Origin: a virus
Strand: one strand, 5' to 3'
Virus record (IMG/VR): IMGVR_UViG_3300030109_004767
Coordinates: 1-46,779 of that record
Length of the DNA: 46,779 nt
Part shown: in pieces, positions 10,442 to 44,601 of the stretch
Layout: each line of letters opens with the position of its first letter
Position numbering within the stretch: the stretch's first letter is position 1
Notes under the pieces: generated by a model
Seen by the model: the letters and a program-made list of their open reading frames with translations, nothing else
What the model was told of the DNA's origin: nothing
Database searches by the model: none
Made by a program: the position numbers and the translations under genes

Positions 10442-11987
10442 TTCTCTCAAGACGATTAGATTACTCGCTGTCGGAACAGACGCATACGGAAAGGCAACTC
10501 AAAAATCCATAGTAAAGTATCAGGTACTCAGAGGACTTCTTGGACCTGTCGTCGATTTGATGTATGAGCTAAAATCCAACATTCAATTAGTTACCGAAGT
10601 ATTGGGCGTCAATACAGAAGCAGCGGAGGATGCGAATGAAACACTCGAACCGTTAGGAAAGACTCTGAGTATCGTTTCCGCAGGATTCAAAGGAATTTTT
10701 ATGGCAGCCTTTACGCTTGTTGGGTTATTCCTAACGGTATCAGCTGTTCTAATGACTATGACGGGGTCGTTTAGCGGAGCGGTTGAGTTATTCCCTGCTT
10801 TCTATCAAGGCTTTGATCAAATATACGCTTCTGCTATAAGTGTAAAAGATAGTCTTTCAGAGATAGGCGCAGCAATAATGGAAGTTGATTTCGGCCCTCT
10901 ATTGGAGATTGCAGGAGCAGTGTTTGGTGGCATAATTATGCTAGTCGTCAACTTTGCGTCTGCATTCATGGGATTCATTGCAGATGTTTTCACTACCTTG
11001 GCCGATCTGTTCACCTTCATGGCTGATACTGGAGCATTCCAAGCTGTAGTAGATGGCGTAACGGGGATACTAACTGCCTTTGTGATGGTGTTCGCATATA
11101 TCGGAGAGATACTAAGCGTATTTGGAATAAATTTTGAAAGTGTATTTGGCGTCCTTTCTACTCTAATCAGAGCCTTTGTGTTCTTCTTGATGAATAGCGG
11201 GCTCATAGAGTTCTTCGCACTTGCTGTTCAAGCCATTGGCACTATATTGCCACCTGTTGTCTTTGTGATAGGGGAGATATTAGTGGCGGTAGCAAAGGTA
11301 ATTGCATTCTTCGCAGGGCCCCTCGTAAGTGGAATCATCGTAGCAATGACATTGATTGCCGCCGGTATTGGCGTGGCAATCAAATTGATTGTGCTCGTAG
11401 TAAAGGGGCTGGCAAACGCTGTTAATTTCATTTTGGATGGACTTTTCTATGTATTCACCCAAGGTTGGAAAGACGCAATAGATTTTGTTGCTAGTCTGTT
11501 CGACAATAGTTTTGGAAGAGTCATAATAGCCGGTCTTGAACTTCTAATTGATGGCTTTACATATGCTTTTAATGGTATAAAAAATATCATAATGTCCTTC
11601 ATAAACAGCGGGCCTGTTGAGAGCTTGATGGATATAATTGGAGTTATTGGAGACGGTATCGGAGGCATAGGTGATGCAGTTGGAAGCGTCGTGGGAGGTG
11701 CGGCAGATTTCCTTGGCTTCCATTCGGGAGGCATATCCACGGGCCCCGCGAGCGGTTATCCGGTAACTCTACACGGAACAGAGGCTGTCGTCCCCCTCCC
11801 TGATGGCAAATCCATACCTGTGACTATGCAGGGCGTGGGCGGTGGTGGCGGAGAAAACATCACAGTGAATATTAGCGTCAGTGGAGGAGGCAATGCACGA
11901 GAAGTAGCAAGAGCCGTAAGCCAAGAGGTCCAGCGTGTATTCAGGAGCCGTTCGAGAGGCGGCGGTTTTGGTAGAGGGGTGATCTGA
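10419..11987 (+). CDS. Tape measure protein
   Basis: This 522-residue protein probably sets tail length. It starts at ATG 10419, overlapping the end of the chaperone frame, and its stop overlaps the next start (TGATG at 11985-11989). After a helical N-terminal part there are many hydrophobic segments between about residues 85 and 365 (for example GIFMAAFTLVGLFLTVSAVL and AGIGVAIKLIVLVVKGLA), as expected for a tape measure that may enter the cell envelope. The C-terminus holds the typical block HSGGISTGP...TLHGTEAVVPLPDGKSIPV, a glycine stretch, and NITVNISVSGGGNAREVARAV ending in an Arg-rich tail. No lysozyme or peptidase motif is seen. The short length predicts a fairly short tail (roughly 80 nm at 0.15 nm per residue; inference). 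Confidence 0.9.
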   Translation: MVLKGLADSLKTIRLLAVGTDAYGKATQKSIVKYQVLRGLLGPVVDLMYELKSNIQLVTEVLGVNTEAAEDANETLEPLGKTLSIVSAGFKGIFMAAFTLVGLFLTVSAVLMTMTGSFSGAVELFPAFYQGFDQIYASAISVKDSLSEIGAAIMEVDFGPLLEIAGAVFGGIIMLVVNFASAFMGFIADVFTTLADLFTFMADTGAFQAVVDGVTGILTAFVMVFAYIGEILSVFGINFESVFGVLSTLIRAFVFFLMNSGLIEFFALAVQAIGTILPPVVFVIGEILVAVAKVIAFFAGPLVSGIIVAMTLIAAGIGVAIKLIVLVVKGLANAVNFILDGLFYVFTQGWKDAIDFVASLFDNSFGRVIIAGLELLIDGFTYAFNGIKNIIMSFINSGPVESLMDIIGVIGDGIGGIGDAVGSVVGGAADFLGFHSGGISTGPASGYPVTLHGTEAVVPLPDGKSIPVTMQGVGGGGGENITVNISVSGGGNAREVARAVSQEVQRVFRSRSRGGGFGRGVI

Positions 11988-13270
11988 TGCCTAAGATACA
12001 GCTCATTAGAAAGGACAGCACGGTGATAGAACTGGACGCCGAAACCATCGGCTTTGCTATGACTAGAGGAGTTCAGACCTTTCCACTACCTTTCATAGCC
12101 ACAAGATATGCAATCGATCTTAATCAGACAGATATTGGCATAAGCATCAGTGGCATATTATCGGACGATGAGGGAGAAGCCACAGGTAACGGTGCAGCTT
12201 TCACGATAGACCTATCGCAATCAGCTGGGAGCATACCCAGCTCGACGTGGTATGGTCAGTATTCTACATCGGCAGGGTCATGGAATACGGTCAAAGCAGA
12301 TTTAGACGGCGTCAATATATCATTCAAATCGATAGGACAACAGAATGCAGGTTTAGGTGAAACGACTTCTATTCGATTAGCGAATGGCACTACTACTTCT
12401 AGCACAGCTAGCAGTATAATCGGAGTGAACATAAGCAGTACCACAACCACTCAGACATTATCTTCAGCAATAACTACAGCTCTAGCTTCTGCCAATATAA
12501 CTGAAAACGGGGCTACTGTCGCCTTTTCAACAGCATTTACTGTCTCGACAGAAACAGGCCAACAGAAAAATAATTCTTACTTTCATCAAACAGGGGATGT
12601 CAATGCTACTTATGCTGCTGAAAGAATCCAGATCAAGAATAATACAGTAGGCAAAAAGGGCAATCTTTCAGTGACAGTGCAAAAGGGAGTGAATGCTGGT
12701 AGCAACACCTTTGCGTTGATTGATGGTTCGTTGGGCAAGTGGGACAAAGAGTTCCTAGTCACTAATCTTACAGGAGGCACGGACATAAGTAAGATGACAA
12801 TGGGGGATAAGGTTCAGGAGGTTTTGAATCTAGCGAATATGTCTGCCGGAGGAGCTCTCATTTCTCCCAACGTAATGACTGGTTCGGTTTTAGATTTGCC
12901 AAGCAGTGTGTCGTCTTTTGATGCGTCTCGTTTTCTGTCAATAGAAGATGCTGCAACTGTTAAGAAATACATTGTAGGCGTTAGAATACCATACGAATCA
13001 ATAGCTAGCTCTTCAATCGGCCAACGAGTATTACGTCAATATATTGTGCCAGCAGGACCGGGAACTGATTTTGCCCCGGAGAAAAACACCGAATCATTCG
13101 ATCCATCTATAACCGTAAATAACCAAATCGTCCGGCCGAATCCCTATCTTGAACAGGGCGTGGCCATACCTTGCGTTTTGAATACATGGAATCCCACATA
13201 CGATGCAGGTAATGGGTATTGGGCTTACGACCTTACATTATCAGTAGTAGAACAACTTGTGGGGATTTGA
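11987..13270 (+). CDS. Putative distal tail / baseplate protein
   Basis: This 427-residue protein directly follows the tape measure, the usual place for the distal tail protein that caps the tube. Residues 1-60 (MPKIQLIRKDSTVIELDAE ... ATRYAIDLNQTDIGISISGI) and the C-terminus (YDLTLSVVEQLVGI) read like the split beta-barrel halves of a tube-like protein that packs onto the tube end. Between about residues 65 and 265 lies a Ser/Thr-rich segment (STTTTQTLSSAITTALASAN) that may be an inserted surface or carbohydrate-binding domain. No catalytic motif is visible. The assignment rests on gene order and general beta-character, not on a recognised family. Confidence 0.5.
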   Translation: MPKIQLIRKDSTVIELDAETIGFAMTRGVQTFPLPFIATRYAIDLNQTDIGISISGILSDDEGEATGNGAAFTIDLSQSAGSIPSSTWYGQYSTSAGSWNTVKADLDGVNISFKSIGQQNAGLGETTSIRLANGTTTSSTASSIIGVNISSTTTTQTLSSAITTALASANITENGATVAFSTAFTVSTETGQQKNNSYFHQTGDVNATYAAERIQIKNNTVGKKGNLSVTVQKGVNAGSNTFALIDGSLGKWDKEFLVTNLTGGTDISKMTMGDKVQEVLNLANMSAGGALISPNVMTGSVLDLPSSVSSFDASRFLSIEDAATVKKYIVGVRIPYESIASSSIGQRVLRQYIVPAGPGTDFAPEKNTESFDPSITVNNQIVRPNPYLEQGVAIPCVLNTWNPTYDAGNGYWAYDLTLSVVEQLVGI

Positions 13271-13273
13271 TGC

Positions 13274-16200
13274 ATGGGGATTATTCGATACCACGGAAAG
13301 GCTGTAAGGCTCAACGGACTAACCGATGGCCTAGTAGTGCCTACAGGTAAGTTCAAAGAATCTGGTAAGGATTTGAGGCACCCAGAATTTGCAGCTACGG
13401 CGAAAACACCCAAGAGCGACGCGGCCAAGATAGGCAGAAAACACGAAGAACAAATATCGAACCCATTAAACTCCATCAGAGGTGCGTTCACGATTGACGC
13501 ATGTATAGTTCCAGACTATGGTGGCGTGGTTTTAGAAAAGCCGGGACAATTCAAATTGACATATGGAAATCCATTTTCTAACGGCCCTCTCATATTCGAT
13601 GTTACCACGGATCAGAGAACATATAGGATAGAGACTTCATACAATGTCCCGATAGTCACATCAAATCATTCCGGTTCATATTCTGGAGGAGAACATAAGC
13701 CACAGGACCTCACACTATCAGAGCAACCTCTTGTCTTTATCTGTGCTCAATTTAGTCGTAGGTTCGTCCGTTGTTTTGTAAATGGCGATTTGGTTGGTGA
13801 GTTAAATTTTGGCGGAGAAGAACCCTTGGTGTCTCAATCCTCTTCTGATTTATTCATAGGGGGTCAGGGGGGTGAATATAGGGGGCTCATCGAATCGATC
13901 AGATTGAGCAAGGGTGTGACAGAACCCAAGATTGAACCCTTGACCAAAATAGACTCTACTCTCGGTCTGTGGCGTTTTGATGATGAGATCGATGTGCCAG
14001 ATATCTATTTCTTCAACAATGCAAGGTCAGCTGTAACCAATCAAGGAAGGGACGGTCCAGACACTCATGATGGACTCATGCCCATGCCCATGGTAGCTAT
14101 GGGGCATACGTTTGCCGTCAGCGGCACTAACACGTTCAAACTACGAGACTACCCTGCTAACCCCAATAGTAGTGTAGACCGATACACTGCATTGGAAAAA
14201 CTAGCAGCATACATAACAGGGATTGAGCTGAAGGACATCAAGAATCAATCTTGGTTTGCTACTGGTACGTTAGATTTGACAGACGCTCAGTATTTTAGCG
14301 GTGTCGCATCTACTCCTTTGAATGTTATAATCAATCACTCAGGCACACATCCAATGACTGGAATATCTGCAACTCCTTCCAGTCAGATGATTAGATATTC
14401 AGATGATAACGTGCAAGCCACAGCTGCGGCAGTGGACCTTAACCCCATGACAGTCAAACCCGAACGTCTTCGCGTAACTATATTGGATTTTGTCAACTCA
14501 AAGATTACTTGCACTGCTATTCACCTAGCTAATGACGAGGCAAATAATGGAGTAGACAATCTCCCTGAAACACAGAACTCCATATTCTATCAATCTCGAA
14601 CAGATGATGTCCCGGTGTGGTTTGTTTTAGGTAAGTCGGATGTTCTAATCGATCCGGGCAATCCTAATGTCAACGCAGGTGTCTCAAACCAGAAGACTAG
14701 AGCAAAAGATACGTTCACTAAATATCTCTTTACACACAACCAGAAATTCAAAGATACAACTGAATTTAGCAATGATGCTTTCTTCATATCTCCGAAGAGC
14801 CGTTCGATAAGCACTGGTTCTGCCACTGCTTTGGCGGCACCAGCTGAGGATTATTCAGCCATGGGTGGCGTGACATCGTACTCGATTTATGAGGGTGAGT
14901 TCTTTCTTAAGCGACTACCACAACCCGACGAACAGAGAGTTAAACAGACTATACAGGGCATTGCCAACACCTTTGAGTATGTTACCGATGACCCGTCTTT
15001 GAATAGTATATTGAATCAAAATGATATAGTCAAAGTCACAGAGACAGTATTTACAGGATCAATTGACAGAGTAATCAATACCTCGTCATCTGTATTAGCT
15101 ACTGATGCCGGAGGTGATCCCTTCAATCGAATTGTAACCGAGTCCGGTGTTGGGTTCTATGCTACTAACAACATGTCCGCTTCTACAAGAGAGGAGATAG
15201 TGGCGATAGCTGTAGACAATGTCAAGCCCTTCTTATTGAAGGGGCTCGATGATGACCACACAGCCGAACTATCAGGAGGTGTTCCGACCAACGATGCATA
15301 TGTACGACACTTGACTCCAGAAAAGGAACCCAGACTAGCTACAATAGATTCTCCGTCTGTTTTGATTAGTGCTGGTGGCCCAAGAAAGATACATGTCTAC
15401 TATGATGCTATTGACCTCACTGGAGAGATTGTAGCGGGCACTGGTTTCTCATTAAGGTCTGGCATCAATGCTAAGCTCACACCTTTCCATGCTATAGGGA
15501 ATAAGGGCTATCTGGTGGTCAAGAAAACCGTTCCCTGTGGTAGTGCCGTCTTTGGTAGTAGAACGGTCTCAGATTGGCTTAGAAAGCCCTATTCTTCAGC
15601 TCCTAGCAATCACAAGGATATACTGATGAAAGTTACAGCTCCCGGTGGCCTTCTGAGTCTGCCCACGGCTTCTTTCAATGGACCCATGTCTAGCAATATA
15701 TTGTCAGCCGCTCCGACTGGTGACATCACTCCTTCGCCATTCATCAACATCGAAGACTGCGTGGTCACTGTCGGTACAGGCATACAAGGCTATGGACGCC
15801 CTAAGCCCGTTCCCAGCACCAACACCCCCGACGATAGCAGCAACTCTGAGTTTCATTCCCTCTTCATAGAGAATACTCAGCTGAAGGACCAACGAGACTA
15901 CACCACTGCCTCTCCCACGCCTCCCGCCCTTACCAGATCGAATCTCATCGGGTTTGACGTGATAGATAACGATTTGAAAACTAATGACAGCATCGTCCTA
16001 GTCCACCCAACCAACAGGAAAAGAACAGCATCTCTTGAGGATATAGTGACATCGGAGGGTGGCGATGATTCTAGCACAGCTACTATTGAGCTCAATCTTA
16101 TGAAGGGCAGAATAGAAGAGATATCTCCCACGATGAACACGGATGGCTCTTCAGAGCTTACATTGAGGGGACGTTCCATATTGATGGACATATCAGACAG

Positions 16201-35074: not shown

Positions 35075-35782
35075 CTATGACCGACTCATTCTGACTCGTT
35101 CACTCACCATTTTTTCTTCACTGTTTAGGACTTCATTGATTCTTTGAGCCCTAATTTTGCCAAGACCTTGAAGAGTCGTCAATTCTTTCACGCTGGTAGC
35201 AGCTATCTCAGCTATTGAACCAAACTCTTCCAGAAGGCTCTCTGCTATGGCTTGGCTAGCACCGGCTGCTCTTAGAGAATCTACTCTCATATCCTCCGAA
35301 GAAGTCTTTCTCAATACCCTGTAAGTAGAAGACGAGCCAAGCGAACCGTCTTTCTCAAATCTCTTGCAGATAAATCTGGCGGCGGTAGACCTGTCAGGCA
35401 GTGTCACGATATTGATATCGTAATCAGTAGCATAACGAGCTAGAGAGCCGACAAATGACGACCAAGCTCTTTGGTATGGTATCTTCCTGCCACTCTTGAC
35501 TGCTTGAGCCAAGTAATTGTCCAACGTCCCCCATACGAGTAACGTGGCTTGATTGTAATTGTCATCGAGATTGTGTAGCTGTTGTTCGAGATGCCCCGAC
35601 ATCATGCTACCCATGTAATCGTGAATGCTCTTTGCCTCGATCCCCACGCTCTTGAAGGCATAGTCGGCAATCATGTTCTGCTTAGTCTGGTGAAAGAGTC
35701 CGTCCTTCTTGTCAATGTATTTCTTGACGAGGTCTTCAAGCCCTGATCGTTCTCTATTATCAATAAAAAGTACCTTTGTCAC
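35075..35782 (-). CDS. XPF/Hef/Mus81-type (ERCC4) nuclease with HhH domain
   Basis: This 235-residue protein has an ERCC4 nuclease domain at residues 1-160: IDNRERSG (7-14; the ID.RE motif), then IADYAFKSVGIEAKSIHDYMGSM (38-60), which matches the GD...ERK...D active-site region with E49 and K51 kept, but Arg of ERK replaced by Ala. A C-terminal helix-hairpin-helix domain follows (about 173-222: LRAAGASQAIAESLLEEFGS ... LQGLGKIRAQRINEVL). Such enzymes cut flapped or branched DNA at junctions. There is no helicase domain, so it resembles short XPF proteins. It starts at GTG 35782, which overlaps the stop of the upstream small gene; GGAGG lies 4 bases before it. It probably resolves replication or recombination intermediates. 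Confidence 0.85.
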   Translation of the reverse strand: MTKVLFIDNRERSGLEDLVKKYIDKKDGLFHQTKQNMIADYAFKSVGIEAKSIHDYMGSMMSGHLEQQLHNLDDNYNQATLLVWGTLDNYLAQAVKSGRKIPYQRAWSSFVGSLARYATDYDINIVTLPDRSTAARFICKRFEKDGSLGSSSTYRVLRKTSSEDMRVDSLRAAGASQAIAESLLEEFGSIAEIAATSVKELTTLQGLGKIRAQRINEVLNSEEKMVSERVRMSRS

Positions 35783-36540: not shown

Positions 36541-37638
36541 CTAAATCCCCTTCCCGTCATAGAACGGACAACGCCCCACACATAAGCCTTCATTGAAGAG
36601 TTTGGGGCAGGTAGGAGTTTGATAGTACCTAGATGCACCATGAGATAACATCTGGTGTGTGACCGCTGGCTTGTAGTCAGCCCATTGAAGTGATTCGATA
36701 AAGGCATGAGCTTTATTGACCGCTTCTTGGTTACTGACTGAGCTATCTTGCGGGGGTCTGGAAAAGCGTCTGAAGTAATCTAATAGATACATCATGAGAT
36801 ACGCTCTTGGCTGATGAGGTGGGTTAGAACCCTTCTCGCAACACGCCGCCTTGAGACAGGGTAACATGGGAACTCCTTCGACGTTCTTCATCTCTACCTC
36901 AATTTCCGCCGCGTCGAACTTTCCAAAGAATCCTGTCAGTCCTGACATCCTATATTCTTCATTATTTCTATTGACAATCTCCAAGGGCATACCCTCATTT
37001 CCCCTTACGAAGAGTCCGCTAGAGGGTTCTTCGGCAGCTTTTGTGATATGCTCCCATCCAGATTCTAACATATCCTTACTCACTGGTATGCTCCAAAGCT
37101 TCCTTTTGACATTGAAGGTATTCGGAACCCTGATGTGTCTATCGGGCCGAAACGAAACCACTGGATCGAGAGAGATGAGTCCCATTTCCTTGACCCATTT
37201 GTTCACTACTACTCTGCCTGAGAAGAGAAGCTCACTCAATTTGTCAGGCGGTAAATCATAAATTTGGTCTAACAATACCCAGATGTGATATCCTCCTCCG
37301 CTGAAGAACACCGCATGTTTCCAACCTCTTTTCGCTAAATAGTCGGATAGACGTAGAGTATCTTCGGTGCATCTTTGCCCAGCTTCTTCATCCGTCATCT
37401 GCAATTGCTCTATTGCTCTCCCCTTATCCAGATCAACGACGAAGTGAGGAATGATAGCTGTGGTGTATTCACATCGGTTGCCACCGGGCTTGAGCTCTTT
37501 GAAAGGATATACCGTCACAGTCATATTGGCTTTGCCGTTGGTGTTATTGACGTATCTCTGAAAGTCTTTCTTAGAATGAATGACCCTCCTGACACGCATG
37601 TCCACCTCTCTAGGATAACCATCAAAGATACTAGCCAA
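36541..37638 (-). CDS. Archaeo-eukaryotic primase fused to PriL-like Fe-S domain
   Basis: This 365-residue primase makes primers for DNA replication. The N-terminal catalytic part has VVDLDKG (67-73; the two Asp of the DxD motif are D69 and D71), FSGGGYHIW (112-120) and DPVVSFRPDRHIRVPNTFNVKRK (158-180), the three standard AEP motifs. The C-terminal part has four or more cysteines (C261, C266, C267, C344, C353, C357) around HQPRAYLMMYLLDYF, GASRYYQTPTC and GLCVGRCPF, which match the PriL C-terminal 4Fe-4S domain. So both primase subunits are in one chain, as in Nanoarchaeum. The start is TTG 37638, since GAGGAGGA lies 7 bases upstream and no better ATG is in frame. It lies 3 bases from the Cas4-like stop. 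Confidence 0.85.
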   Translation of the reverse strand: MASIFDGYPREVDMRVRRVIHSKKDFQRYVNNTNGKANMTVTVYPFKELKPGGNRCEYTTAIIPHFVVDLDKGRAIEQLQMTDEEAGQRCTEDTLRLSDYLAKRGWKHAVFFSGGGYHIWVLLDQIYDLPPDKLSELLFSGRVVVNKWVKEMGLISLDPVVSFRPDRHIRVPNTFNVKRKLWSIPVSKDMLESGWEHITKAAEEPSSGLFVRGNEGMPLEIVNRNNEEYRMSGLTGFFGKFDAAEIEVEMKNVEGVPMLPCLKAACCEKGSNPPHQPRAYLMMYLLDYFRRFSRPPQDSSVSNQEAVNKAHAFIESLQWADYKPAVTHQMLSHGASRYYQTPTCPKLFNEGLCVGRCPFYDGKGI

Positions 37639-37641
37639 AAA

Positions 37642-38583
37642 TCATTCCTCCTCATACGGTATTGATACACTCCCATATCTCGGACAGAAACTCTTGACTT
37701 TGCACCACGGCTCGCATGTGCTTTTTGTCCTAAAGTCAGATATCAAAGGGAATGAAGGGCCGAAATCTCTGCCAGTGTAACCTCTATGAGCTCTCAACAG
37801 GGCATCTATGTCTTTCTTCATCTTAGAAACAGAGCCCGTCTTGATAGCTTCTATGTGCCTGAATATATGGTCTCCGCCTGTATGGTCCCAGCCCCAATAC
37901 GCAGTATTCAGGCCGCCTAGTCTGGGATGATCGGATTTGTTTAGAAGATATACATAGTACGCCATCTCCTTTCGCATACTATCCCATTTCAATGGCTTGT
38001 CCTTCCATTTACCCGTCTTTAGCTCATGGATATGTATATCTCCGTTCTCATCCATGAACATGCGGTCAATGATGCCCGTAAAGTGTACTAGCTGGCCATC
38101 TATTTCCACCACGGCGTCAAGAGATATCTCATTGCCCACTGGAAGGAAATGCAAAGGGTCAGAGACCATGAAACGTCGCGCCTCTGCATCTAGCAATTTG
38201 TCCAAGTGGACTTGTTCACCCAATACAAAGTCCCCTCTCTTCGGATTTGAGTTTGGTATGAAGTCACAGAAATAGCTCTTTACCCTATCAAAGCCATAGG
38301 AACGCATAGAGGCGGCATAGCTCACATTGAGGTCATTGTAGAAGTCCTCAGTGGCGTCGTGGACATTACTACCGCGGATCATAGCATCGTTCTCTTCCTC
38401 CTTGACCCCTAATACTCTCTTGATGAAATATTGCTGTGAGCAAAAGGTGAAGTCGCTTAACGAAGATTTGGATATTCTAGGTATGATGTGTGGAGGTAGA
38501 CCGGGATGCCATGAATACGTGGACTTGAGTCCTTCACGTCCGGGCACAGGATAAGCTCTGGGCTCTCTAATTTGCATCGTCAT
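37642..38583 (-). CDS. Cas4/RecB-family nuclease with Fe-S cluster
   Basis: This 313-residue PD-(D/E)XK nuclease has motif I-like IRGSNVHDATEDFY (69-82), GIIDRMFMDENGDIHIHELKTGKW (170-193; active-site D173, E187 and K189) and AYYVYLL (208-214, the QxxxY region). One Cys (C48) and three C-terminal Cys (STCEPWCKVKSFCPRYG: C290, C294, C300) form the usual Cas4/AddB-type 4Fe-4S site. The enzyme probably trims or resects DNA ends. No cas1, cas2 or CRISPR array is nearby, so it is not for adaptation; many archaeal viruses carry such Cas4-like proteins for recombination or replication. Its start overlaps the PAPS-reductase-like gene by 17 bases; ATG 38577 is an alternative start. Confidence 0.85.
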   Translation of the reverse strand: MTMQIREPRAYPVPGREGLKSTYSWHPGLPPHIIPRISKSSLSDFTFCSQQYFIKRVLGVKEEENDAMIRGSNVHDATEDFYNDLNVSYAASMRSYGFDRVKSYFCDFIPNSNPKRGDFVLGEQVHLDKLLDAEARRFMVSDPLHFLPVGNEISLDAVVEIDGQLVHFTGIIDRMFMDENGDIHIHELKTGKWKDKPLKWDSMRKEMAYYVYLLNKSDHPRLGGLNTAYWGWDHTGGDHIFRHIEAIKTGSVSKMKKDIDALLRAHRGYTGRDFGPSFPLISDFRTKSTCEPWCKVKSFCPRYGSVSIPYEEE

Positions 38584-39529
38584 CCGAAGTCCCCCATACT
38601 ATGTCACAAGCTGGAGTCTCCTCATCGATCAGGCCCATGCGCTCATGTGCATTGTCATCACTACCTACAAAATCCTCCAATGTCATCTGCCCCTCAGCTA
38701 CGAACCGAACGGCATCGCATGAGGAACAATCAAACTTTGTACGACTCTTGGGCACTTCTCCTGCCTTGAATCGCTCTTCCATTTCTTCTAACGTCCAACC
38801 GTCTCCCTTCTTCATCGAACGAAGACCGTGATTACTGACCTTGAGACTCTCTTTGTCCCATTTCTTAGCTATGTCCCAGAGCTCAGGGTAGCCCCGCCAC
38901 ACGCCCCACCAAGACTCTGCTGGTTGTTTGATGCAGTGAAAACACCCAAGGCGTGTGAAATTGACATATAACTCATTCATCAGACCAAGGTCATCGAGAT
39001 AATCAAAGCAGTCCTGCTCAGTCCAACCCCACTCAACAAGAGGATACCTATTGCGAGCATTGCGAGGGTCTTCTGTGTGGTCTTTACCTGATTTGCCGTG
39101 CTTACCACTGTTGCGAGTGCGGTGTTCCTCGTCTTTAGCTATACCAATGTATATCACATCTGCGTCTTTTCCCGCCCTTTGTAGGGGTTGAACCTTAGAT
39201 TCTCTGGCCCACCAACAAGGATATGCACGTAGAGGAGCACCCCTTTGTTTGCCTTTATTAGCTCCACGAGTTATCTCTCCATAGAACCAGTCATCCCATG
39301 ATCGAGGTGACTTGACAAACTCTACCTTCAGCTCAGGGTTGAATCTCTCCTGAACATACTTCTCAACCTGAGATATGTAATCATAAAGCTCAGGAAACTC
39401 AAAGTCGGTATCAGCGAAGACAATTCTTGTGACAGGCATCTCTGGGTCATCAAGCTCCAAGAGCCGAATCAGCATTGCAGTGCTGTCTTTGCCCCCAGAA
39501 AAACTGACCATACCTGTCTTCGTAGACAT
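38567..39529 (-). CDS. PAPS-reductase/ATP-pyrophosphatase family protein
   Basis: This 320-residue protein of the adenine-nucleotide alpha-hydrolase fold has a PP-loop SFSGGKDSTAML (9-20), followed by the family's VFADTDFEFPELYDYI. Cysteine pairs occur in PCWWARESKVQPL, LGCFHCIKQ and FDCSSCDAV. ATG 39529 is chosen over GTG 39538 because it gives a normal N-terminus and GAGG precedes it. In cells such enzymes reduce activated sulfate; in phages they are often of unknown use, and DndC uses the same fold to put sulfur into DNA. Here it is tightly coupled to Cas4-like and Sak4-like genes, which points to DNA rather than sulfur metabolism. No dndD/E is visible. The cysteine pattern suggests metal or Fe-S binding. 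Confidence 0.75.
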   Translation of the reverse strand: MSTKTGMVSFSGGKDSTAMLIRLLELDDPEMPVTRIVFADTDFEFPELYDYISQVEKYVQERFNPELKVEFVKSPRSWDDWFYGEITRGANKGKQRGAPLRAYPCWWARESKVQPLQRAGKDADVIYIGIAKDEEHRTRNSGKHGKSGKDHTEDPRNARNRYPLVEWGWTEQDCFDYLDDLGLMNELYVNFTRLGCFHCIKQPAESWWGVWRGYPELWDIAKKWDKESLKVSNHGLRSMKKGDGWTLEEMEERFKAGEVPKSRTKFDCSSCDAVRFVAEGQMTLEDFVGSDDNAHERMGLIDEETPACDIVWGTSDDDAN

Positions 39530-39534
39530 CGCCC

Positions 39535-40761
39535 TCACTCCGAGGGTTCACTACTATTGTCCTTTACATCATCGGGGTGCTCAAACGATCCGTCACGTAA
39601 TCCCGGCCATCCGTACCATTCACCGCCAGTCCTATCCCTGCGGAATAGCTTCACCCTTCCATGGGCTTTCAAGCTGGTTCGATTCTGGGTCATGACAGCA
39701 AAGGATTCTACGACGCCTGTGAGCTCTCCTCGCTCGTCTCGCTCCTCGTCTACCTCTACGACGACCATCTGCTGTAGCCATCCTTCAGTGTCTCTGAGCC
39801 AGTGAGGAGTCTCCGCCCCCATTATCTCGTTGCCCGTACTGTCGTATGCCGACTTCATGTGCGTGATTAGGTAGCAGTGTATTCCTCTTCTGCATAGCTC
39901 CTGCAACGCAGTGAGTGCTGAATTGTATCGATTCTTTCTGATATTCCAATTGAAACGACCAATCTGAGTGGTCGTAGCTTTACCTGCTGTGGCAATACCA
40001 TCCGGTCCAAGACCGAGGTCATCCACCTTCATGGTAGTCTCACAGATGTTCAGCCAGTGATCAGCTCCGTCGAAAACGACTGTCTTCAAGTATGGTGTTG
40101 GCATTTCTCCGTGCCTCTCAAAATACTCCATCTGCTTGTCAGCCATCTCAATGGCGGCCTTCAGATAATCAATGGTCATTTGATAGCTAGCGGGGAAATC
40201 GTATGGAACCCTACTAGGCTTGTCATTCATAACCCACGGATTGAGAACGACGATGTTCTTCGATCCACTGTGGTGGGCCGCCTTCGTACTCTCTCCTCCT
40301 GCATCGAAGTCAATATGATGAATCTCAGCCCCATTTGCCTTTTCCTCCTCAGTCAGCGAGTCGAGAACCTGACCAGACTTTCCTGACTTGGGTGGCCCAG
40401 CTATGCCACATAGAACGTGCTTGTGGCTTCTGGTAGCTCTACCACGGGCGGCGTTAATCTGTGCCCATGCAGGGTTGGAGCTTGTATTCATCCAGCTCCC
40501 TTGTGGCTCGTTTATCACAGCAACAGGAGCCTTTGTTGGCATTATCTTTTCAACAAAATCATCCTTCATCTTATCCACTTCTTTGTGAAACTCTGGAGGC
40601 ATGGCTTCCATGACCTCCTTTACCTGTGTGGGATCGATGTTTTCCGGCTCTCTGAAACCTGTAGGAACATTAGAGCTGGGGTCCTGTGCTTTGTTCAAAG
40701 CACCTTTATCTGAGCTAGTGTCTATAGGCTCAAAGTCCTCAAAGAAACCCGTTCCGCTCAT
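39535..40761 (-). CDS. Sak4/RecA-like recombination ATPase
   Basis: This 408-residue protein has Walker A GPPKSGKSG (about 122-130), a strand EIHHIDFDAGGES, Walker B TVVFDGAD (about 227-234), and a motif ITHMKSAYDSTG that ends the RecA-like core; it matches the short RecA-like Sak4/AAA_24 type of phage single-strand annealing partners. The start ATG 40761 overlaps the upstream stop (ATGA); GTG 40776 is an alternative but less likely. The N-terminal 100 or so residues are an extra segment, Pro-rich and acidic. It lies directly next to the candidate ssDNA-binding protein, a pairing typical of phage recombination modules. It may also act as a helicase loader. Confidence 0.75.
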   Translation of the reverse strand: MSGTGFFEDFEPIDTSSDKGALNKAQDPSSNVPTGFREPENIDPTQVKEVMEAMPPEFHKEVDKMKDDFVEKIMPTKAPVAVINEPQGSWMNTSSNPAWAQINAARGRATRSHKHVLCGIAGPPKSGKSGQVLDSLTEEEKANGAEIHHIDFDAGGESTKAAHHSGSKNIVVLNPWVMNDKPSRVPYDFPASYQMTIDYLKAAIEMADKQMEYFERHGEMPTPYLKTVVFDGADHWLNICETTMKVDDLGLGPDGIATAGKATTTQIGRFNWNIRKNRYNSALTALQELCRRGIHCYLITHMKSAYDSTGNEIMGAETPHWLRDTEGWLQQMVVVEVDEERDERGELTGVVESFAVMTQNRTSLKAHGRVKLFRRDRTGGEWYGWPGLRDGSFEHPDDVKDNSSEPSE

Positions 40762-42110
40762 GGAAGTCCACCCCACTTGTCCTTCTCAGGCGTTCCGAAG
40801 TCATCGAATTGAGCTACATCGTTAGTGCTAGCTGACGGCTTTGGTGAAACTATTGATCGTAGAGGTAACGCATATACATTGAGACCATCCATGTTGTAAT
40901 TGATATCTCCTGTCTGGCTGACCCATGTCCTAGTCTGAATAACACACCATACTCTTGAGCCCTGCTGATAGTCATACCATCCATCGTCCTTCTTGACCTG
41001 ATGAGCGTGGTGGTCCTTGATATGAGCCTTGTTGAGATTCACCCATACTCCAGAGTTAGAAGGGTCTTCTCTTCTTAGATTCTGATTAGTCAGGACAATC
41101 GGGTGCTTTGAACCGCCCTCGGCATACTGGTCTTCCTTTCCATCGGAATTGATGTAGTCCACCTCTCCCATGACGGCAAATATAGGTCCAATCTCGCCAC
41201 CGTTGCGTAGGCTGATTTTGTTGTCAGCTTTATCGTGATAGTCCATGTAGTCCTCAAGAGCACACACAGGCATGAATTGAGCTATGAATTGATCAGGTTG
41301 GAACATTGCGTTCGCCTTTGTCAGATTACTCTGTGGAACCCAATCCAAACCATAGTTAGGGTCGATGTTACGAGCTTCTAAGATAGGTTCGTCTGAGCCC
41401 CAAGCGGTCCCCTTCTCGGCCTTGAACGATATTGGTACGTTCATGACAAGCTTTGTTTGTGCCGCATCGAAGGAACACTCAAGCACCATAGGAGTCTGTG
41501 GTCCTTCAACTAAGAAATTGTCCACCGTATTGACTACTACTACCCATCTCCTCTTCCAAAGGTATGCAACCTTCGGTCTTCGATCCTCTTTCAACATACA
41601 TACATAAGCAACGCCACTGTTAATCGGTATGGCCCAGTTGGGTGGGTTTTCTTGTGAACCCGCCTCTACGTGTAGTCTACTATCGTCTCCTGCCACGGCA
41701 ACCCAGTTACCACTGTCAAAATAAACACGGCCTATTGCGATTGTTCTGTCATTGTGCATCATCCCGAACTTCAAAGCATTGCCCAGATTAATTTCTGCTG
41801 CGTCCCTAGCCTTCTCTCTTTGTTGCCTCATATTATCATTAAGACCTAGATATCCTACGATCATGCCGACCCAAGTATCACCAGAGCCACCACCACTGCC
41901 ACCTCTACGAGCTGACGCGGCGTAATATTGCCTAAATACATCTAATTTATCATCGCTAGGCCAGCCCTTGAGAGTTTCTCCTCTGGCCTTCCATAAATCA
42001 CCCAATGAGGTCTTTAGCCATTCTTCAAACCCGGCCTCTACCTCTTTCTGGGTGACTCCTCTTTCTTCCGCTGTCTTCTTCAATTCATCTTTGTACGTCA
42101 TTCTCATCAT
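40758..42110 (-). CDS. Candidate ssDNA-binding/replication protein
   Basis: I do not firmly recognise this 450-residue protein. It has a helical charged N-terminus (YKDELKKTAEERGVTQKEVE), a Gly/Ser linker (RRGGSGGGSG), then a long beta-rich region with aromatic residues (GRVYFDSGNWVAVAGDD, YLWKRRWVVVVNTVD, GSRVWCVIQTRTWVSQTG). An acidic short tail carries aromatic residues (NDVAQFDDFGTPEKDKWGG). That is the layout of RPA-like or phage SSB proteins, whose tails recruit partners. It is encoded directly upstream of Sak4, with stop-start overlap (ATGA), the usual position for an SSB. It may thus protect ssDNA and load Sak4. Confidence in the function is low. ATG 42101 is an alternative start. Confidence 0.4.
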   Translation of the reverse strand: MMRMTYKDELKKTAEERGVTQKEVEAGFEEWLKTSLGDLWKARGETLKGWPSDDKLDVFRQYYAASARRGGSGGGSGDTWVGMIVGYLGLNDNMRQQREKARDAAEINLGNALKFGMMHNDRTIAIGRVYFDSGNWVAVAGDDSRLHVEAGSQENPPNWAIPINSGVAYVCMLKEDRRPKVAYLWKRRWVVVVNTVDNFLVEGPQTPMVLECSFDAAQTKLVMNVPISFKAEKGTAWGSDEPILEARNIDPNYGLDWVPQSNLTKANAMFQPDQFIAQFMPVCALEDYMDYHDKADNKISLRNGGEIGPIFAVMGEVDYINSDGKEDQYAEGGSKHPIVLTNQNLRREDPSNSGVWVNLNKAHIKDHHAHQVKKDDGWYDYQQGSRVWCVIQTRTWVSQTGDINYNMDGLNVYALPLRSIVSPKPSASTNDVAQFDDFGTPEKDKWGGLP

Positions 42111-42151: not shown

Positions 42152-42523
42152 TTAAGCATTCATACGCAGAAGCTCTTCGATACTCTGTATTGTCGCCATT
42201 ACTTCATCATGGGTCTTCGGTTGGAATATCTGGCCGTTCAACAATCTTACATTTTCAATTCCTTTTGGCGTGGGCGACAAGTATTCTAATCCAGTAATTC
42301 CCTCTAGTATGATAGACATCTCCCTCCAACCAGAGTAAGTCCCTCTAACCTCAACACCCAACAACTCTAGTGCTCTCTTTATCGGGTCGTTCATTTTGAT
42401 AAACCATAGCTCCGGCCGAATGAGATAACCACATTTCCGTTCTTTCGTGAGCTGGCATTTTATTCCACCTCTCAAATGCGAAGCTAAAACAATCAAGTCC
42501 TTTTGGGATTCAGTTAATTCCAT
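42152..42523 (-). CDS. Hypothetical protein, possible DNA-binding fragment
   Basis: This 123-residue protein overlaps the end of the ligase-like gene by 10 bases. GGAGG lies just upstream of ATG 42523. The sequence has a positive segment (IKCQLTKERKCGYLIRPELWF), then KMNDPIKRALELLGVEVRGTY and ISIILEGITGLEYL-like hydrophobic stretches. The pattern of a repeat DPIKRALELLG recalls a half LAGLIDADG domain, but the characteristic motif and its acidic residues are absent, so I do not call it a homing endonuclease. Its conserved place between SSB and ligase-like genes suggests a replication accessory role. Confidence 0.5.
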   Translation of the reverse strand: MELTESQKDLIVLASHLRGGIKCQLTKERKCGYLIRPELWFIKMNDPIKRALELLGVEVRGTYSGWREMSIILEGITGLEYLSPTPKGIENVRLLNGQIFQPKTHDEVMATIQSIEELLRMNA

Positions 42524-43947
42524 CCGATCTCCTCCACCCCAATAACATCGGATATTCCAGAGCTAGGGCTTCCTTTCAGTATCGAACCAGAGATGTAAGG
42601 GCCAAAGTCCCCCCATCCAGAGGCGTCCATAGCAACCTCAACAAAACAGGGCACATCAATTTTTATTGATTCGCCCTCGGACATGGTCCAATCGGTTTCG
42701 ATATGGCGTTTGATGAATGCTTCAATTATGTGGTCCTGAGTTTGAAGCTCGCCCAAGGGGTAGTATCCCATTCCGTCTCTAGCAGATACTGTCCACACCA
42801 CGTATGGAGGAGCACCAGTTTGTGGTTGAACTACCTTACCTTCTGTCACTCTAAGGATTGTAGCTTTCTTCTCAGCTCTGACTAACACTACTTCATCGGG
42901 TATGTTCTCAAAGGTCAATATACCGTTAGGATTTCTCAATACTACAGGTTTATTGTTTGATATTTCTATGACAGTCAATGGGTCGTCGATCCTGTGTAAC
43001 TTCTTCAACGCCCATGGTGCCACGTTATCTTCGATTAGTTTTCTCCTACCTGCAAAGGACAGAGACAAATCCTCTGGGGATAATAAATCGACAATCAACA
43101 GGGGCGTGTCTCTCATTTCAGCATAATCACATAAGAAGATACCATTAGGGATTTTAGCAGAGTCCGCCCACCTCAATATTTCATCGTCATCTTCGGGTAG
43201 CTCTCCGCCGGATGCCGTAAATCCAATTGATACATTTTCCTTTCTATTTATGTGAATCGATACCCATGACCCCTCAACGGGCTCTACGAAACATGCACCG
43301 AAAGGCACGGACGCTAAGTCTGACATGTATGCCGGAGCAGGTATTACCATGCTCCAACCTATTCTCGGTCTGATCGCCTGAAACTCAAACTGTCCGGCCG
43401 AAAAAAGAATTGCGGTTCTTTTCAGTCCCATGAGATTTACAGCTGACCTGACGTGATGAAACAAGTGCCCATTTGCCATGGACAGTGCATTCAGAATATC
43501 TTTTCTTCTAGCTGGCCCTCCCTTTTTACTCAGTCTCATAAGAAATACTTTCAAATCTCTGCGGTTCATTTTGAGAAATAGGGGATACATCAGTCTCGCC
43601 CTAGTCTCATTATCAATATCCGAAAGAATGCTTTCGAGACGCATGTGTGCGGAGGGCAGGGAGATGTCCGTGACTTCTGTCTCGCTCAAACCAGCTAACA
43701 AATGAATGACATCGGGGTTTTCTGTGACTTCGGAAGGATAAGCTCCTGTCAGTAGAAAATAAATCTCTCTGAGGTCCTCATCCCCTAACCGTGTGGCAGA
43801 TGAAGGGGGATAGAAAAAATGAACGACGGGCCACTGGTTGTCTGATGAGCCCACCAGATTGTTCGCAATATATTCGGAACGCTTTCTAGCTTTGCCGATG
43901 ACTCTCCATGTTTCGGCTACTGATCGGAAGCTTAGCACTCGCCTCAC
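42514..43947 (-). CDS. ATP-dependent DNA-ligase-like protein, probably without the catalytic lysine
   Basis: This 477-residue protein has the layout of archaeal ATP-dependent DNA ligases. An all-helical N-terminal part (about 1-185) includes LREIYFLLTGAYPSE and FLMRLSKKGGPARRKDILNALSMANG, like the DNA-ligase A N-domain. PRIGWSMVIPAP (194-205) resembles the stretch before the nucleotidyltransferase motif. Then CFVEPVEGSWVSIHI (219-233) aligns with the E-x-K-x-D-G-x-R-x-Q-x-H motif, but the lysine is replaced by Pro and Asp by Glu. The downstream LLIVDLLSPEDLSLSFAGRRKLIED (283-307) fits the ligase DLL...L..RR.LL segment. A C-terminal beta region could be the OB domain. If true, this is a catalytically dead ligase with a structural role. 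GTG 43947 or GTG 43938 starts it. Confidence 0.45.
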   Translation of the reverse strand: MRRVLSFRSVAETWRVIGKARKRSEYIANNLVGSSDNQWPVVHFFYPPSSATRLGDEDLREIYFLLTGAYPSEVTENPDVIHLLAGLSETEVTDISLPSAHMRLESILSDIDNETRARLMYPLFLKMNRRDLKVFLMRLSKKGGPARRKDILNALSMANGHLFHHVRSAVNLMGLKRTAILFSAGQFEFQAIRPRIGWSMVIPAPAYMSDLASVPFGACFVEPVEGSWVSIHINRKENVSIGFTASGGELPEDDDEILRWADSAKIPNGIFLCDYAEMRDTPLLIVDLLSPEDLSLSFAGRRKLIEDNVAPWALKKLHRIDDPLTVIEISNNKPVVLRNPNGILTFENIPDEVVLVRAEKKATILRVTEGKVVQPQTGAPPYVVWTVSARDGMGYYPLGELQTQDHIIEAFIKRHIETDWTMSEGESIKIDVPCFVEVAMDASGWGDFGPYISGSILKGSPSSGISDVIGVEEIGWN

Positions 43948-44321
43948 CTACACAATTCCTGATACAGGGGCATAATGTCCTCCTCCTTCCCCCCACATAT
44001 ATCGAGGATAGCCTCCTTACCTCTAGGGTCCTCCCACCAAGAGCCATATCTGCCATTCCAAGTCGCCGTCGGCCTCTTGATAACAGCTAGAGCTACAGCG
44101 TCCATTTCTGTTAAGCTCACACCAATACCCGCCATGCTCAACATCGCATAGCAACAGTCCATACATAGGTTGTAGTAAGCTCTCTTGGCGTATTTCCTGA
44201 CACGGGACCACAATTCACAAGACATGTCTCCTATGACCTCATGGTCACACAATATGCCACATATTTCTCGTATGATCGAATGATGATGAGCCTCGAAGTC
44301 CTCAATTGTCTCCCATTTCAT
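43944..44321 (-). CDS. Hypothetical protein with Cys/His cluster
   Basis: This is a 125-residue helical protein whose N-terminal region has FEAHHHSIIREICGILCDHEVIG, with several His and Cys, followed by CELW and NLCMDCCYAMLSMAGIG. The Cys/His pattern could bind a metal. I chose ATG 44321 since GGAGGG (44334-44329) lies 7 bases before it; the upstream ATG 44336 would have no such site. The stop overlaps the GTG of the ligase-like gene. The end (YGSWWEDPRGKEAILDICGGKE) is conserved-looking but unfamiliar. Function unknown. Confidence 0.55.
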   Translation of the reverse strand: MKWETIEDFEAHHHSIIREICGILCDHEVIGDMSCELWSRVRKYAKRAYYNLCMDCCYAMLSMAGIGVSLTEMDAVALAVIKRPTATWNGRYGSWWEDPRGKEAILDICGGKEEDIMPLYQELCR

Positions 44322-44601
44322 TCCATTCCCCTCCATCTACTAGCCATGCCTCATCATTTTCGACAAGGCCGATCAGCGTGTCTCTAAGTTTCTTGGTCTC
44401 CTCCTTCGTGAGGAAAATACCTACCTTTGTGTATCCAGTGTATCCTGTTTTACTTGGCATCACTCTAAACATTCTGAGATTTAGGATGCGGTCTCCGTAT
44501 GCGTTCGTTGTCGTGATATGTAACTCCTGACCCAGATGGCATGAAGCGTCCATGACGCTATGCACCTCCTGTTTGTAGTCGTGAGTCTTGGACACATTCA
44601 C
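44302..44601 (-). CDS. Hypothetical protein, possibly PC4-like
   Basis: This 99-residue protein starts at GTG 44601 or GTG 44595; AGAGGAGGA stands just before, which favours the second. It has a beta-rich core (LHITTTNAYGDRILNLRMFRV, then YTKVGIFLTKEETKKLRDTLIGLVENDEAW). The strand plus helix GIFLTKEETKKLRDTL resembles the end of the PC4/ssDNA-binding fold, but I do not see the rest. Its start overlaps the stop of the upstream gene (GAGTGA). No function is safe; a small DNA- or RNA-binding protein is a guess. Confidence 0.5.
   Translation of the reverse strand: MNVSKTHDYKQEVHSVMDASCHLGQELHITTTNAYGDRILNLRMFRVMPSKTGYTGYTKVGIFLTKEETKKLRDTLIGLVENDEAWLVDGGEWNEMGDN

Follow-up and report, generated by a model that had tools for sequence, protein, structure and literature searches.

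The window analysed here is a 46,779-base fragment of a virus record. The gene under study lies on its minus strand at 42514–43947 (stop included), starts with GTG at 43947 and encodes a predicted protein of 477 amino acids, referred to here as the pseudo-ligase; its 5' end overlaps the end of the upstream gene. Three domains, all on the minus strand, were delineated. Residues 1–188 (43384–43947) make up a helical N-terminal domain equivalent to the DBD of ligases, which was assigned from the secondary structure of a predicted model, a DBD-DBD profile match and conservation, and which carries an invariant acidic block, DED..E, at residues 56–61. Residues 189–360 (42868–43383) correspond to a degenerate nucleotidyltransferase (NTase) domain. 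At its motif I position (residues 222–226, 43270–43284) the sequence is EPVEG in place of ExKxDG, without the Lys. The C-terminal OB-fold domain (residues 361–477, 42517–42867) has no recognisable motif VI (RFPR...R.DK).

Magroviruses are tailed viruses of Marine Group II archaea, and a thermosome and two opposed gene clusters have been described for them (PMC10768690, PMC12999244). Since the window encodes a thermosome (Cpn60/TCP1, E=1.2e-140) and has two opposed gene clusters, with the replication block opposed to the structural module, and since the records of its relatives are 92–108 kb long, within the 90–110 kb of magrovirus-type genomes, the contig was regarded as magrovirus-type. The first relative of the pseudo-ligase was found in IMG/VR at 54% identity. 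Using the Sak4-like neighbour as bait yielded 21 loci, and hmmsearch placed a pseudo-ligase at the same position in most of them. The family now comprises 54 distinct full-length members, all in IMG/VR contigs of magrovirus type, i.e. from tailed viruses of marine archaea. No relatives were detected by tblastn against deposited phages or by a contig scan of cellular genomes.

The pseudo-ligase is the third gene of a block whose order, 99 aa–130 aa–pseudo-ligase–123 aa–450 aa–Sak4, was fixed across about 80 loci, some of which overlap within one contig, and was kept down to 27–30% identity. In the window, all of these genes are on the minus strand. By synteny, the 99-aa gene is at 44302–44601, the 130-aa gene, directly upstream of the pseudo-ligase in relatives, at 43944–44336, and the 123-aa gene, directly downstream in relatives, at 42152–42523. 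The 450-aa gene at 40758–42110 was identified by a PHROG match (phrog_4477) together with synteny, and the 413-aa gene at 39535–40776 encodes a Sak4-like RecA-family ssDNA-annealing ATPase with the Walker A motif GPPKSGKS. The initial annotation had placed the gene within a replication operon, and this fixed six-gene replication/recombination block with Sak4 bears it out. In relatives, a PD-(D/E)XK nuclease gene usually comes after the block, in many of them with an ERCC4 nuclease gene as well; Pfam matches placed these in the window at 37642–38583 and, with an HhH motif, at 35075–35782, respectively, both on the minus strand.

Practically every relative has the 123-aa and 130-aa genes on either side of the pseudo-ligase. 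In 3 of 20 members, the 99-aa gene product weakly matched the C-terminal domain of a T4 y05I-like putative transcription factor, with E 1e-3 at best. Profile searches gave no support for two further ideas, that the 99-aa protein has a PC4-like ssDNA-binding fold and that the 450-aa protein has an OB/RPA fold. Between Sak4 and the PD-(D/E)XK nuclease, at 38567–39538, there is a PAPS-reductase-like gene (PF01507, 1e-15), which occurs in some relatives only. For the gene at 36541–37638, motifs of archaeo-eukaryotic primases (VIDLD, SGGGFH and DRHIRIPNS) were seen by eye in relatives, and a phmmer search against the PDB for this primase idea was negative.

Searches with single pseudo-ligase sequences against Pfam, PHROGs, NCBIfam and the PDB (phmmer) gave no match, and the Pfam cut-offs of PF01068 and PF04675 were not reached, as would be expected if the fold were unrelated and the resemblance to ligases a matter of chance. 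An AlphaFold2 model was evaluated alongside profile comparisons. The model, built from an alignment of 15 relatives, had a mean pLDDT of 79.5, with a middling NTase region (pLDDT 53–73 around residues 191–260). A Foldseek search of the PDB gave 43 matches at E<=1e-3, every one a DNA ligase (best E=2.9e-15), and the matches spanned all three ligase domains; among viral models, the named matches were mostly DNA ligases too. The whole-chain TM-score was only about 0.35, with an rmsd of about 19 Å over all three domains, a low score that is expected from a different domain orientation.

The profile of the 54-member family was aligned by hhalign with that of 12 archaeal ligases at E=6.6e-9 (score 76.8, 317 columns), whereas the best of 60 column-shuffled family decoys scored 24.5. 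When the domains were compared separately, the E values were 2.3e-5 for DBD-DBD, 1.7e-4 for NTase-NTase and 0.025 for OB-OB, in the right register, and all mismatched domain pairs gave values of at least 0.045. The OB match is too weak to stand alone, but it stands together with the fold search. With Foldseek, the decoy-controlled profile comparison and the domain-order test all agreeing on a DNA ligase, a chance resemblance of an unrelated fold is scarcely credible. By predicted structure and profile comparison, the ORF is confirmed as a homologue of archaeal ATP-dependent DNA ligases in which the DBD-NTase-OB fold and order are kept.

The sequence EPVEGSW occupies residues 222–228. In the alignment of motif I, either the Pro or the Val of EPVEG lies opposite the catalytic Lys of FEIKYDG, with a register ambiguity of one residue, and neither option is a lysine. 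Across the family this position is filled by I, V, S, T, P, R, E, H or Y (54/54 members), and no lysine was found from G-5 to G-1 of motif I in any of the 54 full-length members. The motif I Gly is invariant in all 54, and the Asp of KxDG is replaced by Glu, Arg or Gln. Motif Ia (SRR) and motif VI (RFPR..R.DK) were not recognisable in the family alignment, and the motif V (W-K-K) region looks deleted, the register of motifs V and VI being partly set by eye. These comparisons confirmed that the catalytic lysine is truly absent from the aligned sequences and that its loss is family-wide, together with the loss of motifs Ia, V and VI. Hence, two proposals of the initial annotation held, namely that the ORF is a DNA ligase homologue and that EPVEGSW stands where KxDG is expected; the structure prediction gave a ligase fold and not an unrelated one.

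The chemistry could in principle have moved to another lysine, so that the protein would still be a nucleotidyltransferase or an AMPylator. WNK kinases are the comparison case for a catalytic lysine at another position. The only candidate for such a relocated nucleophile is Lys315 (43003–43005, minus strand), the sole lysine invariant in 54/54 members, located after the helix of motif IIIa and before the strand that follows. An acid is kept at the motif III position (D/E274 in all members, with the register taken from an alignment by eye) and D287 of motif IIIa is retained in the family, so that residual nucleotide binding is possible. However, motifs Ia, V and VI have been lost as well and the lysine site varies freely, and we consider relocated chemistry improbable.

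The pseudo-ligase shares the DBD-NTase-OB order and the predicted fold with the archaeal ligases of P. furiosus (2CFM), T. gammatolerans (9DFA) and A. fulgidus (3GDE), as well as a P-rich entry to the NTase domain, the motif I Gly, a downstream His, and the Asp of motif IIIa followed by RR. Unlike these enzymes, it lacks the motif I Lys, the SRR of motif Ia, the W-K-K of motif V and the Arg/Lys of motif VI; its NTase and OB domains are acidic, and it has about 477 residues compared with 560. The ligase of Halogranum tailed virus 1 (HGTV1_223), at 475 aa, is of nearly equal size and also comes from a large archaeal tailed virus. In contrast to the pseudo-ligase, it keeps KVDG and matches the ligase profile at 8e-36, and it did not match the magrovirus family profile. 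Since this 475-aa viral ligase retains its lysine, neither size nor viral origin is the cause of the loss.

All 54 distinct family ORFs were intact and full length, and pairwise dN/dS among close relatives was 0.009–0.15, supporting strong purifying selection on the predicted protein. In the family, the DBD was the best conserved domain (mean identity 0.41, versus 0.36 for the NTase domain), whereas in the 12 archaeal ligases it was the least conserved (0.36 versus 0.46), and the pattern of constraint is therefore inverted relative to active ligases. The domains also differed in charge, with mean net values of -8.8 for NTase and -7.6 for OB in the family as against +1.8 and +0.8 in the 12 archaeal ligases. 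In real ligases, the NTase and OB domains close around the nick. The acidic character of both domains in the pseudo-ligase speaks against a simple DNA clamp. The suggestion that a dead ligase had been kept at full length is thus well founded. The structural role proposed for it, such as nick binding or scaffolding, stood only in part: a conserved ligase homologue within a replication/recombination block is consistent with such a role, but the acidity acquired by the NTase and OB domains leaves nick binding in particular without specific support, and a protein-binding adaptor appears at least as likely.

The same negative charges, set against roughly +1 to +2 for archaeal ligases, would suit a decoy or inhibitor, that is, a DNA mimic or a competitor of the host ligase for the clamp or other partners, which would regulate replication rather than assist it. 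The gene is, however, locked in a block with the Sak4 ATPase and not with host-takeover genes, and the QKSFF clamp motif of archaeal ligases was invisible by eye in the family alignment. A decoy function is accordingly given little weight, and an ancient pseudo-ligase that serves as a non-catalytic subunit of a replication/recombination complex, presumably with the proteins of the block, is probably the best explanation. Its ancestor would have been an archaeal or viral ATP-dependent DNA ligase. The ability to transfer nucleotides may have disappeared before the sampled magroviruses split from one another, the protein being retained as a non-catalytic subunit. The gene order suggests a complex with the Sak4 recombinase/annealase and the 450-aa protein. 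The conserved helical domain would be the working surface, holding or positioning DNA and partners during replication/recombination, with its specificity for DNA again suggested by gene order. Nicks would presumably be sealed by another ligase, most likely that of the host.

Two known systems resemble parts of this arrangement. Inactivated archaeal PolB2 shares its operon with a RadA that is inactivated too (PMC4104785), and is likewise a replication enzyme without catalytic residues that is conserved beside a RadA-family protein (PMC4104785). It differs in being a polymerase, in being cellular and in the inactivation of its RadA partner, whereas Sak4 here keeps its Walker A motif. In yeast, Dnl4 without catalytic activity continues to support end joining (PMC3694833), which shows that a ligase need not be active to serve as an assembly factor at DNA ends (PMC3694833); this is an engineered mutant of an active enzyme in eukaryotic NHEJ. 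Archaea are already known to have pseudo-enzymes among their polymerases and RecA proteins, and our literature search found no paper on a natural, lineage-wide dead DNA ligase. The pseudo-ligase family joins inactivated replication enzymes such as PolB2. The initial observation is confirmed, and its interpretation is partly supported and widened from one odd gene to a lineage-wide family. If the magrovirus ligase homologues are indeed inactive, the conserved six-gene block with its dead ligase represents a testable new replication/recombination assembly.

Magroviruses are reportedly widely distributed in surface ocean waters and encode a replisome described as nearly complete, with a ligase among its parts. 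Across 20 large relatives (64–108 kb), PF01068 never reached the Pfam cut-off and PF04675 gave nothing. Weak PF01068 matches in these genomes led to a protein of about 1,140 aa, encoded at 11382–14792 on the minus strand of the 108-kb relative (L123), where it adjoins a head maturation protease and an SU10-type capsid gene; it was also present at loci L112–L119 and L129–L207, and absent from the window fragment. Its central region is ligase-like (NTase/OB), with a best Foldseek value of 1.6e-7 on a poor model (pLDDT 58.7), and the matches listed were all ligases or relatives of ligases. The hhalign score of this region was 37.8 against 26.3 for the best decoy. Because the motif I Lys is not conserved (of the 72 members whose motif could be read, 38 have K, 30 have M and 4 have another residue), this second ligase domain looks degenerate too. 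The two proteins were also compared as possible paralogues, and the hhalign result was unconvincing (E=0.019 over 33 columns).

What the magrovirus literature calls an 'ATP-dependent DNA ligase' is probably this protein of about 1,140 aa. Since the ligase of the literature is apparently this head-module protein, the pseudo-ligase at 42514–43947 has probably gone unannotated there. Contrary to the published virus-encoded ATP-dependent DNA ligase, magroviruses as a group may then have no working DNA ligase but two separately degenerated homologues, a replication/recombination adaptor and the head-module fusion of about 1,140 aa, with the host sealing the nicks; we see the chances for and against this wider proposal as evenly balanced. 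Should both homologues prove inactive, the claimed independence of magroviruses from the host needs revision. A D12-class adenine methyltransferase was also observed in the 108-kb relative (L125, 97–1587, minus strand; PF02086, 1.1e-6).
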